Origin: a virus
Length of the DNA stretch: 27,472 bases
Strand: one strand, 5' to 3'
Virus record (IMG/VR): IMGVR_UViG_3300042349_000286
Coordinates: 1-27,472 of that record
Shown: positions 24,757 to 27,311 of the stretch, piece after piece
Layout of the letters: the number at the start of each line of letters is the position of its first letter
Position numbering within the stretch: the stretch's first letter is position 1
The notes under the pieces: model-generated
What the model was told of the DNA's origin: nothing
The model's input: the letters and a program-made list of their open reading frames with translations, nothing else
Database searches by the model: none
Made by a program: the position numbers and the translations under genes

Positions 24757-24772
24757 TCAATATTTTGAACTG
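24757..24772. repeat. Inverted repeat TTCAATATTTTGAA region
   Basis: GTTCAA and TTGAAC arms around four bases, lying between the small HTH-like gene and the 24-base repeat, with the second arm inside that repeat. No T-run follows, so it is probably not a terminator. Confidence 0.5.
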
Positions 24773-24788
24773 CGTATATTTACAAGTT
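24765..24788. repeat. 24-base direct repeat, copy 2, downstream of methyltransferase 2
   Basis: Identical to 16001-16024. Here its GTT end merges with GTTGCCAGC, the left member of the inverted repeat that bounds the methyltransferase 2 gene. See the first copy for the palindrome. Confidence 0.8.
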
Positions 24789-24800
24789 GCCAGCAATACT
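24786..24800. repeat. Left end of an inverted repeat around methyltransferase 2
   Basis: GTTGCCAGCAATACT here matches the reverse complement of 25666-25680 at 14 of 15 positions. The two enclose the gene, and the left copy overlaps its stop. Cassette-bounding repeat in the reading given for the attC-like sites. Confidence 0.7.
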
Positions 24801-25650
24801 AAACAGACCGCATAAACGAAAAGATATGTTCGACTATTCCAACAGTCCAACCATCGCCTATTAAGTTGCCGGCTTGTGCTTTATTTAAGTTTCTTGTATA
24901 TCCTAAAGGGATATTGTGTAATTTTTCTAATTCAGTTTGAGTGCAATATCTTACACCTTTACTTTCGTCCATTTTTTCATCTGTATAAATTATAGTTGTC
25001 ATTCCAGTAGTTGCATATCTATGAAGCATATATCTTTGATTTGCATCTCGACCACAACTTGTATTTAAACAAGTATGTTTTTGTTTGTCAGAGTAACCAT
25101 ATTCTAAAATATCATTTAAAGATATTTTTTTGTCTTTCGGTTGTGGTATTGCACATTTTCTGTTACCAAACAAATCAAAACTTTCAGGCCCAATATTAGT
25201 CCAAAACAATCTATCTCTTAAAGCTCCAGAAACTCTTGCACCATTTAATCGTACAGGTTCAGTTCCTAATAAATCAGAAATAGTATTATATCCTAAATCG
25301 TCCATTATTACATTTTCAAGTAAATAGTAAGTTGGTTTTGTTTCCTCAAGTAATCTAATGTATTCATAAAATAACATTGATTTCATTCCTTTTAAACCAT
25401 CTCTTACACTATTTGCTCTACTAAAATCTTGGCAAGGACTGCCGCCAATTAATAAATCTATTTTTGGTAAATCTTGGCCTTTTACTTTTGTTACATCTCC
25501 AATATGTTTAGTATTTGGAAAATTGTCTTTTGTACATTGTATTGCGTGTTTTTTTATTTCACTTGCAAAATAGTTATCTACTTTGATGCCTAAATTATCA
25601 AGTGCAATTTGTCCGCAACTCATACCATCGAATAAAGATAATACATTCAT
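24799..25650 (-). CDS. C5-cytosine DNA methyltransferase 2 (Dcm-like)
   Basis: 283 aa, compact. Motif I VLSLFDGMSCG (3-13), catalytic GGSPCQD with Cys73, motif VI LENV (111-114), LRDR (144-147), and motif X IGDGWTVGIVEHIF. A short target-recognition region lies between about 180 and 235. It resembles methyltransferase 1 throughout the core and at its end (VEHIFSFM), but lacks that protein's N-terminal extension. No restriction enzyme nearby. It is enclosed by a 15-base inverted repeat and lies between two attC-like sites, so it seems to be an acquired single-gene unit. Start ATG at 25650. Confidence 0.9.
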   Translation of the reverse strand: MNVLSLFDGMSCGQIALDNLGIKVDNYFASEIKKHAIQCTKDNFPNTKHIGDVTKVKGQDLPKIDLLIGGSPCQDFSRANSVRDGLKGMKSMLFYEYIRLLEETKPTYYLLENVIMDDLGYNTISDLLGTEPVRLNGARVSGALRDRLFWTNIGPESFDLFGNRKCAIPQPKDKKISLNDILEYGYSDKQKHTCLNTSCGRDANQRYMLHRYATTGMTTIIYTDEKMDESKGVRYCTQTELEKLHNIPLGYTRNLNKAQAGNLIGDGWTVGIVEHIFSFMRSV

Positions 25651-25665
25651 ATCGTAATAATTAAA

Positions 25666-25680
25666 AGTACTGCTGGCAAC
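25666..25680. repeat. Right end of the inverted repeat around methyltransferase 2
   Basis: AGTACTGCTGGCAAC, reverse complement of 24786-24800 with one mismatch. It ends with AAC, the first core of the attC-like hairpin that follows. Confidence 0.7.
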
Positions 25681-25807
25681 AATGCATATACAAAAGCAGG
25701 GCTTCGGTGCAAAATTTCAGCGTTTGTGTTTCTATTGTTCATTTGTTCTAAATTGAAAGTTCAGTAATTCTAATCCCTGCCCTCGTATATGCTCAACGTT
25801 AGGCGTA
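25672..25807. repeat. attC-like hairpin site between methyltransferase 2 and RtcB genes
   Basis: GCATATAC (25684-25691) pairs with GTATATGC (25785-25792), and GCAGGG (25696-25701) with CCCTGC (25775-25780), separated by a 4-by-4 internal loop and leaving a 73-base terminal part. The outer cores are AAC (25678-25680) and GTTAGGC (25798-25804, matching GTTRRRY). Read on the minus strand, GCCTAAC then follows the RtcB gene and GTTGCCAG precedes the methyltransferase gene, as at a junction of two integron cassettes. One core (GTTGCCA) deviates from consensus. Confidence 0.55.
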
Positions 25808-25816
25808 ATGGCTACA

Positions 25817-27184
25817 TTACTGCTTCGATTGACGTTTCTTCTTCCAAGGTGCATCTATTTCCCAATCTCCAGCCATAATACACCCGTAAGGAATAATTTC
25901 ATCAATTACTTCTCCAAGTCCAAATTCTTGCATTTGACGTTTAACCATTTCAGCACTTTTGTAAGCAGATGGTAATTCTGAAATATCAATGTTCTTTGAG
26001 AAAAACCGAACATCCAATCCTTGCGTTTCTTCTGCAAAAATTTCTTCAATTGTTTTGTCTGCCTTATTTCTTTTATGTTGTCCACGGCTTATATTTCTAC
26101 CTGCTCCGTGTGGTGCAAATCCTAAGTTATTTTCGGTTGCTTTGCCCCTTACAATTAAAACAGGTTGGCTCATATTCAACGGGATTAAACGCAACCCATC
26201 TTTGCTATCAGGAACAAACTTGTCATCTAATGGAGTTGCTCCTTTGGCGTGGTAAAATAAATCACCGTCTTTAAATACAAAGTTGTGTTCGTTCCAAAAC
26301 CTGTTCAATACATCAGCTTCTAATTTTTCAGCAGTTGCATTGTGCAGTGTGGTGTGGTTTAATTTTGTCCACTCTCTTACAATTTGTAACGCTTCCCAAT
26401 ATGCTTTACCTTCTTCTGTTTCGTATGGTATCCAAGCATTTTTGGGGCTTGTTTTTGGGCTAATTTTTTTTCTAAATCTTTCAGCCACTTCAACTCCTGC
26501 TTTGTAAAGGTTTGCTCCAAAACCACGGCTTCCGTGATGCGTAACCATCATTGTTTCGCCTGTGAGTTTTGAAACTCCAATAAATAAAAAGTGATTGCCA
26601 TCGCCTTGCGTTGCCAAGTGTGTTTTGGCAAAATTCAAACTCCTTTCAGATTTTAAAAATTGGTTTGCCAAAATCTTTTCTTCAAGTTCGGTTGGTAGTT
26701 CTGAATATTCTTCACGCCCACCGCCTCCGAAATGAGTAATTGAATGTGCTGCATCCAAAACTAATTTAGGGTTAATTCTGCCAAAGTTTGTCATCATTAC
26801 CGAACAACAAATATCAGCAGAGTGCATTGATGGGTGTATTGCGTTCTTAGCAACCATAACTCCACCAACAGGTATTTGTCCTTCACCGGTTGGGCAAGCA
26901 TCAGGCATTACCGCACCAGCCTGTATTGTTGGTGTAACCATTAGCAAATTCATGTCACGCAAAACCATTTCAACATTGCCTTGTTCTTCTTCGTTCTCAG
27001 GTCGGATGTTTTTATGAAAGCCTAAAGGCTCTTTGTATGGCTCAATATGAACAGGCTGAATGCTATCCATGTATTTACGCAAAGCATTGCCAGTTAAGTT
27101 ATTTGCATTAGCGTATTCAATAGCTTCTTTGAATAGCTTATTGGGTTTGTAGCCCATTTCGATTAAATCTTTTCCTGTTATCAT
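25817..27184 (-). CDS. rtcB: RtcB-type RNA ligase
   Basis: 455 aa from the ATG at 27184 ([14 protein letters not shown]); a GTG at 27223 would add 13 residues but starts within the cassette end. Signature residues: SADICCS (Asp124, Cys127) for metal binding, [10 protein letters not shown] (His198), HHGSRGFG (His217), YHAKGATP (His312), and [11 protein letters not shown] with His359, the expected guanylated histidine. RtcB joins RNA 2',3'-cyclic phosphate (or 3'-phosphate) to 5'-OH ends using GTP and Mn. The DIGCG motif is replaced by DICCS, marking a divergent branch. In a phage it could repair tRNA or RNA cut by host nucleases. It stands alone, bounded by inverted repeats and attC-like sites. 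Confidence 0.85.
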
Positions 27185-27224
27185 CTTTTCAAAATTAAAA
27201 GTTTCTACTAAATTAACCGCCACA

Positions 27225-27234
27225 TACGCCTAAC
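27225..27234. repeat. Cassette-end repeat upstream of rtcB, paired with 25798-25807
   Basis: TACGCCTAAC is the exact reverse complement of GTTAGGCGTA at 25798-25807. Together they enclose the rtcB gene. In integron cassettes the R'' core (RYYYAAC) is complementary to the start of the same cassette, which is what is seen here when read on the minus strand. Confidence 0.7.
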
Positions 27235-27311
27235 AGCAGTTTGGCAAAATGGCTTCCCAACGCTCAAAGCCGACACACAAAGCCACTTCGCCAAGCACCA
27301 GACCGTTATGT
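27228..27311. repeat. attC-like hairpin site upstream of rtcB
   Basis: GCCTAAC (27228-27234, RYYYAAC) at one side and GTTATGT (27305-27311) at the other enclose a long imperfect palindrome: arms 27241-27255 and 27280-27294 pair at 13 of 15, and the two mismatches are G-T on the minus strand. About 84 bases, a usual attC size. The second core departs from GTTRRRY at one base, like the GTTATGC found in some Vibrio repeats. Confidence 0.6.

Follow-up and report, generated by a model that had tools for sequence, protein, structure and literature searches.

The window, a linear 27,472-bp IMG/VR fragment, contains two arrays of mobile gene cassettes, which we read, with a probability of about 0.8, as parts of an integron-like system of Bacteroidota loaded by a recombinase of the host during infection. 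The initial annotation had proposed that rtcB and a C5 methyltransferase form two tandem cassettes, and their cassette nature is now near certain: sister phages keep the flanks and swap whole units at AAC/GTT cores. We infer the recombination itself, including the single-strand reaction, the acting enzyme, its timing and expression, from what sequence comparison displays, namely modular units with exact junctions, their turnover, the architecture of the sites, adjacency to a recombinase and likeness between attI sites.

In the proposed mechanism a cassette would consist of a hairpin recombination site and one or few promoter-poor genes, with complementary ends (GTT...AAC). A tyrosine recombinase would recognise the folded single strand and cut out or insert the unit at the AAC cores, and the recombinase of the infected host would load cassettes from chromosomal arrays, or from those of other phages, into phage genomes. 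We favour a host enzyme as the loader because no recombinase was found in the available phage sequence and its two attI-like sites resemble host attI. Cassette genes, being encoded on the folding strand and directed toward attI, would be read from upstream phage promoters, and some hairpins may supply a leader and start codon. With DNA methyltransferases, Mom, Tad3 and RtcB as cargo, a phage population could refit its counter-defence repertoire gene by gene.

Two cassette arrays in the window

The arrays occupy two places, each closed by an identical 24-nt attI-like sequence. Three hairpin sites are spread over them and, as noted at the outset, no integron integrase was found in the window; a CALIN is defined by two or more attC sites lacking a nearby integrase, and the window would qualify if these sites count as attC. 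The features are:

24765–24785, minus strand: attI-like site, place 1; the minus strand reads AAC followed by TTGTAAATATACGCAGTTCAA, with a copy at 16001–16021
24786–25797, minus strand: cassette 1 (C5 methyltransferase); hairpin site, ORF and terminal AAC; closure 15/16
24799–25650, minus strand: C5 cytosine DNA methyltransferase, cargo of cassette 1 (PF00145, E 4.6e-31)
25681–25797, minus strand: attC-like hairpin site of cassette 1; AAC-spacer-stem-GTT geometry; accompanies the methyltransferase in L002
25798–27304, minus strand: cassette 2 (rtcB); hairpin site, ORF and terminal AAC; 10-nt exact start/end complementarity
25817–27223, minus strand: RtcB-type RNA ligase, cargo of cassette 2 (PF01139, E 2.1e-35)
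27235–27304, minus strand: attC-like hairpin site of cassette 2; CTTGGCGAAGTGGC..GCCATTTTGCCAA family
27305–27345, minus strand: upstream flank (TGTATTATTTTTGTGG), kept in L004 and L008 while cassettes change
16001–16021, minus strand: attI-like site, place 2; same as place 1 over TTGAACTGCGTATATTTACAA
16022–17208, minus strand: place 2 cassette; hairpin site 17091–17208 and C5 methyltransferase ORF 16035–17141; closure 16/16

Read on the minus strand, place 1 begins with the flank TGTATTATTTTTGTGGACATAAC, followed by the hairpin 27304–27235 and by rtcB between GTTAGGCGTA and TACGCCTAAC; then come the hairpin 25797–25681, the methyltransferase between GTTGCCAGCAGTACT and AGTATTGCTGGCAAC, and finally TTGTAAATATACGCAG. 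Both inverted repeats reported earlier are present. Around rtcB, GTTAGGCGTA at 25798–25807 has its exact reverse complement TACGCCTAAC at 27225–27234, and the 15-nt repeat flanking the second methyltransferase (24786–24800 and 25666–25680) contains one mismatch. The hairpins described between AAC and GTT cores were located at 25681–25797 and 27235–27304. The annotation saw these two units but overlooked the second array (16001–17208) and both attI-like sites. Place 2 (17208–16022) reads AAC hairpin, C5 methyltransferase and closing AAC, then TTGTAAATATACGCAGTTCAA as at place 1; the ATG of its methyltransferase ORF falls within the hairpin. The flank at 27305–27345 is probably a promoter region of Bacteroidota type reading into the array, and the few bases between it and the first AAC vary among sisters.

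A detector combining a strong AAC-hairpin-GTT element with start/end complementarity of at least 14/16 nt matched 2 units in the window, one of them place 2, and none in any of 40 Markov-shuffled windows. The rtcB unit falls under the threshold because its closure is 10 nt long (with no mismatch).

Cassette turnover among phages

Viral contig L002 shows no other close relationship to the window at the nucleotide level, yet it contains the methyltransferase cassette, from the hairpin through the AAC after the gene (1,024 bp, 95.6% identity). The ends of this copy fall at the AAC/GTT cores, and L002 has no flanks in common with the window. The 5' half of the same hairpin was found in another contig (L003) ahead of a different gene. 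Sister contig L004, whose two flanks are 98.7% and 93.8% identical to those of the window, is missing the rtcB cassette and holds three other cassettes at the same position (a 58-aa ORF, a 107-aa ORF and a different C5 methyltransferase). Yet other cassettes lie between similar flanks in L008. At place 2, the window and sister L005 have the flanks GGTATGCATAAC and TTGTAAATATACGCAGTTCAATAAATTGCAC in common and differ in everything between, which reads as a clean swap of one cassette. Unit-wise exchange at the core between otherwise alike replicons is therefore seen in the window, L004, L005 and L008, and at the unit level in L002.

The annotation had suggested looking for the same flanks around other genes, and the hairpin type of cassette 2 turned up beside differing neighbours in 35 viral contigs and in 6 stretches of real genomes. 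It had also reasoned that repeats kept in syntenic phages without gene turnover would speak against cassettes; the opposite was found, with turnover in the sisters. Within a set of near-identical hairpins, one cassette start, present in 10 contigs, had 9 different left neighbours.

Architecture of the recombination sites

The usual build across 88 distinct sites is AAC, 5 nt, a stem of ~20 bp, 1 nt and GTT. Stem position 14 is a 5'G.T3' wobble in all 48 sites with exact 5/1 spacing (35 viral, 6 from other genome contigs and 7 recombinase-linked). In the same sites position 6 is T-A (48/48), position 11 is G.T in 34/48 and position 5 is a C.A mismatch in 28/48, while the other positions vary with pairing kept. 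Since G.T wobbles turn into A.C mismatches on the complementary strand, they mark the folding strand. The same (bottom) strand folds better in 84/88 sites, with a median difference of 2.85 kcal/mol, a count in which the strand of sites without attI was assigned partly by stem score.

The likeness to attC that was first remarked upon holds for the AAC/GTT boundary cores, for the hairpin with one favoured strand and for the G directly after AAC, which is present in 84/88 sites and has been reported as conserved in attC sites (PMC2727003). It does not extend to classical attC. The R box consensus GTTRRRY / RYYYAAC is found at only 7/88 cassette starts, and the spacers are 5/1 nt, whereas two class 1 control sites have 7/7 and 8/8. 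Every one of the 88 stems pairs without gaps for 18 positions or more, mostly with 0–1 mismatch, and therefore no extrahelical bases (G in L'', T further on) are seen in them; they have the position-14 G.T wobble instead. Cassette ends are complementary over 14–16 nt in 78/87 units, compared with exactly 7 nt in one class 1 cassette measured the same way, the classical control being small (two sites, one closure). The commonest position of the stop codon is 13 nt before the cassette end, and 21/77 ORFs start inside the hairpin.

No Rfam family accounts for the sites, a plasmid search returned one weak match at chance level, and the loop of the second hairpin had no match as an exact pattern in viral sequences. 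The DNA folding free energy of the large-loop sites is only modestly better than that of shuffles, and we therefore take the comparative data, not energy, as the evidence. Pattern matches in L120 (Gammaproteobacteria) and L121 were rejected as chance.

The same architecture occurs in the cultured lytic Polaribacter phages P12002S and P12002L, which have contiguous units with G.T-type sites and closures of 15–16/16, and which differ in cassette content. The P12002S array (L223, 38943–41858) is contiguous and comprises about five cassettes, most of them annotated as hypothetical; lying in a cultured lytic phage, it offers a ready laboratory model. Separately, about 20 hairpin matches were found in one Bacteroidetes MAG (L119/L123, JADBXZ010000137.1, and other G037 contigs), their spread over many contigs suggesting a large chromosomal array.

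An I2-less recombinase beside the arrays

Arrays of the G.T-wobble site type adjoin a tyrosine recombinase in the Bacteroidota genomes G039, G301, G191 and G244 and in the phage contig G014. The latter (59,878 bp, with a terminase gene) has an array whose start lies immediately upstream of a 289-aa recombinase and which seems to run on across a contig join. Searching with TIGR02249 revealed IntI-like recombinases in G014 and in four hairpin-bearing Bacteroidota MAGs, none of them over the cut-off, and model positions about 182–237 were unmatched in the array-linked enzymes. Because 14 control genomes match too, below the cut-off, this score is not specific, and the missing segment and array adjacency were used as criteria in its place.

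The best PDB match of the G039 recombinase is IntI4 (2a3v), to which it aligns in two blocks (query 14–181 and 204–275 against chain 14–181 and 247–318); between IntI4 residues 181 and 247 the G039 enzyme is about 43 residues shorter. Judged by these alignments, the array-linked recombinase resembles IntI but lacks the I2 (IntI-specific / patch III) domain, the additional domain defined in PMC9668308. An IntI integrase carrying it, a feature of integron membership, was thus not found beside these arrays. Homologs of the recombinase are present in 148/295 genomes of the class at E<1e-45. Among phage contigs, 1/37 tested has a tyrosine recombinase, namely G014, and this enzyme has no close relatives in viral contigs other than itself; no phage-encoded recombinase was found in the window, a 27-kb fragment, or in the sister contigs. 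An integron-like mechanism, worked by an I2-less recombinase that the host would supply for this phage, is the likely one.

Several other recombinases were set aside. The long enzymes of G039:C113, G040 and G041 have no adjoining array, and the G037:C7 recombinase, at first sight integron-linked, proved to be part of an IS91-type element that has a Y2 transposase. At that locus (L148, 470–2477) a recombinase of the I2-less family lies directly upstream of the IS91-type transposase, so a second type of mobile element makes use of this family too.

It is unlikely that these are ordinary integron cassettes, with classical attC sites moved by a standard host IntI integrase. The geometry of the sites is integron-like, and Qi et al. 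2023 (PMC9892861) reported integrons and CALINs from phages, among them Polaribacter phage P12002L. In that work IntI1 was active on one of two P12002L sites tested, on the bottom strand only; the G.T-type family is also present in P12002L, and the IntI1-active site may or may not belong to it. The scarcity of GTTRRRY, the ungapped stems without extrahelical bases and the 5/1-nt spacers argue against ordinary attC, and the array-linked recombinases, lacking the IntI-specific segment, argue against an ordinary IntI.

We consider it still less probable that host XerCD acts on the folded hairpins, as with CTX phage, the dedicated recombinase being incidental. Such an account would suit phages that encode no recombinase and sites that, like the CTX phage stem, have no extrahelical bases (PMC4792948). 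However, a separate recombinase clade adjoins the arrays at five loci, and the Xer-like paralogues of these genomes score much lower against it (about 100 bits, compared with 170–200 bits).

attI-like sites of phages and hosts

The attI-like site of place 1 is identical in L005, has one base changed in L004 and is near-identical in L008 and L009; both places of the window and all four of these contigs terminate in AAC followed by TNGTAAATATACGCA. At recombinase-linked loci an attI adjoins the integrase gene, whereas the window has the attI-like site only. Cassette ends lie about 60–130 bp from the recombinase in L145, L131, L220 and L221, and the chromosomal cassette end of G039 reads ...CCGCTAAC followed by ATCCAAATATACGCATTGCG, about 130 bp before the recombinase. 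The motif AAATATACGCA is common to the phage attI and to the chromosomal attI beside the recombinase (G039, L145), in both cases 4 nt after AAC. This likeness between phage and chromosome comes from one genome, the other recombinase-linked attI following a looser TYRTTTATA-like pattern. On these grounds phages appear to carry a copy of the landing site of the host. In L207 AAATATACGCA was also found near a recombinase, but the closure of the cassette end was unconvincing and this locus was rejected.

Polarity of the cassettes

Both genes had initially been read as having classical cassette polarity. Comparison with L002 overturns this: the hairpin ahead of the ORF, not the one behind it, moves with the gene. 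The window's plus strand is therefore the top strand, and the bottom strand, which is the one that folds, encodes the ORFs, opposite to classical cassettes. From the attI-like end the plus strand has the classical order attI-[GTT...AAC]-hairpin. Most ORFs in the recombinase-linked chromosomal arrays of G301 and G191 have the classical orientation. Reversal therefore characterises phage-type arrays, along with some genome contigs that carry these hairpins, and chromosomal arrays differ from phage arrays in layout. The uncurated orientation count is 94:25, a ratio that is a lower bound because several of the 25 viral units scored as top-strand duplicate a site picked up from the opposite strand.

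That the hairpins are only transcript elements (leaders or terminators), with genes moving by homologous recombination at conserved flanks like phage morons, is very improbable. In its favour, the mRNA in phages has the sequence of the folding strand, a number of ORFs begin within the hairpin (21/77) and the G.T wobbles are of an RNA type. Against it, unrelated phages have a cassette in common without common flanks, a leader has no need of ~15 nt of end complementarity, and the G301 and G191 sites lie on the non-coding strand, beside a recombinase.

Relation to known systems

The integron-like system that we favour agrees with integrons and phage CALINs in its tandem one-gene cassettes, hairpin sites, AAC/GTT cores in which AAC is followed by G, the core as exchange junction, an attI closing the array and methyltransferase cargo in phages. 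It differs in a recombinase without I2, in sites without the GTTRRRY box or extrahelical bases, in the invariant position-14 G.T, in its longer end complementarity (14–16 nt, against 7 exact in the one class 1 cassette), in phage ORFs on the bottom strand toward attI and in a phage attI without a recombinase. Strict integron membership is lacking on two features, the I2 domain and the R box with extrahelical bases.

With the insertion of CTX phage into dif by XerCD it would have in common a folded single-strand stem without extrahelical bases and a host-supplied recombinase without I2; in contrast, gene cassettes and not a phage genome are moved, arrays are formed, and a dedicated recombinase lies beside chromosomal arrays. 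The inverted integrons of Spirochaetota (Treponema type) resemble G301 and G191, where the 3' end of the recombinase faces attI, co-directional with the cassettes, but here the sites have the G.T wobble and the recombinase is without I2. Co-evolution has been described for the I2 domain and the extrahelical bases, both of which the CTX phage system lacks (PMC4792948), and a place between the CTX phage and integron systems would fit the Bacteroidota phage system.

Clusters of cassettes in phages are already known; the build of hairpin and recombinase is different and apparently undescribed. An I2-less integron, the G.T signature and an integrase-free phage attI did not appear in the literature searched, most subscription papers and preprints lying outside it. 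We lean, less firmly than on the main reading, towards a second integron lineage in Bacteroidota and their phages, with an I2-less recombinase, hairpins without extrahelical bases in which an obligatory G.T wobble would give strand identity, and attI mimics through which lytic phages would reload counter-defence genes out of the arrays of hosts and other phages. If true, this lineage would stand midway between Xer/CTX-type recombination and classical integrons, a step that, to our knowledge, has so far been speculation only. The system makes it testable whether integrons gained their I2 domain and extrahelical bases starting from a simpler hairpin system, and the signature of 5/1 spacing, position-14 G.T and GTT...AAC closure can be used to search for arrays that IntI-based searches would miss by construction. 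Integrons in Bacteroidetes are few according to surveys (PMC9024848).

Cargo of the cassettes

Cassette cargo is enriched in counter-defence genes. The 66 viral cassette ORFs include matches to 13 N6_N4_Mtase, 6 C5 and 3 D12 methylases (up to 22/66, as double matches are possible), along with 2 Mom, 1 Tad3 (Thoeris inhibitor) and 1 RtcB. Of 66 ORFs drawn at random from these contigs, 2 match methylases (Fisher p about 6e-6, or 6e-5 counting 19 only). RtcB may act in repair against host RNA-cleaving defence. A Pfam scan of the 66 ORFs detected no TnpA and one OrfB/TnpB, and thus no HUH transposase of the kind that marks IS200/IS605-type single-strand transposons, among a diverse cargo. Virulent phages would gain site-specific change, one gene at a time, of anti-restriction and other counter-defence genes, which would explain methyltransferase, Mom, Tad3 and RtcB genes hopping between unrelated phages.

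In the window (12301–14693) and in L094 (2878–5155), genes for an N6/N4 methyltransferase and an SNF2-like helicase lie side by side, and the same pair forms one fused 731-aa ORF in L002 (4784–6979); they are possibly one anti-restriction or modification module. Elsewhere in the window, positions 23884–23950 (minus strand) weakly match the Bacteroidetes FopS sRNA in Rfam (27.6 bits, E 0.96, under the gathering score), and an apparent single glycosyltransferase is split over two overlapping ORFs (9961–10392 and 10389–10817).
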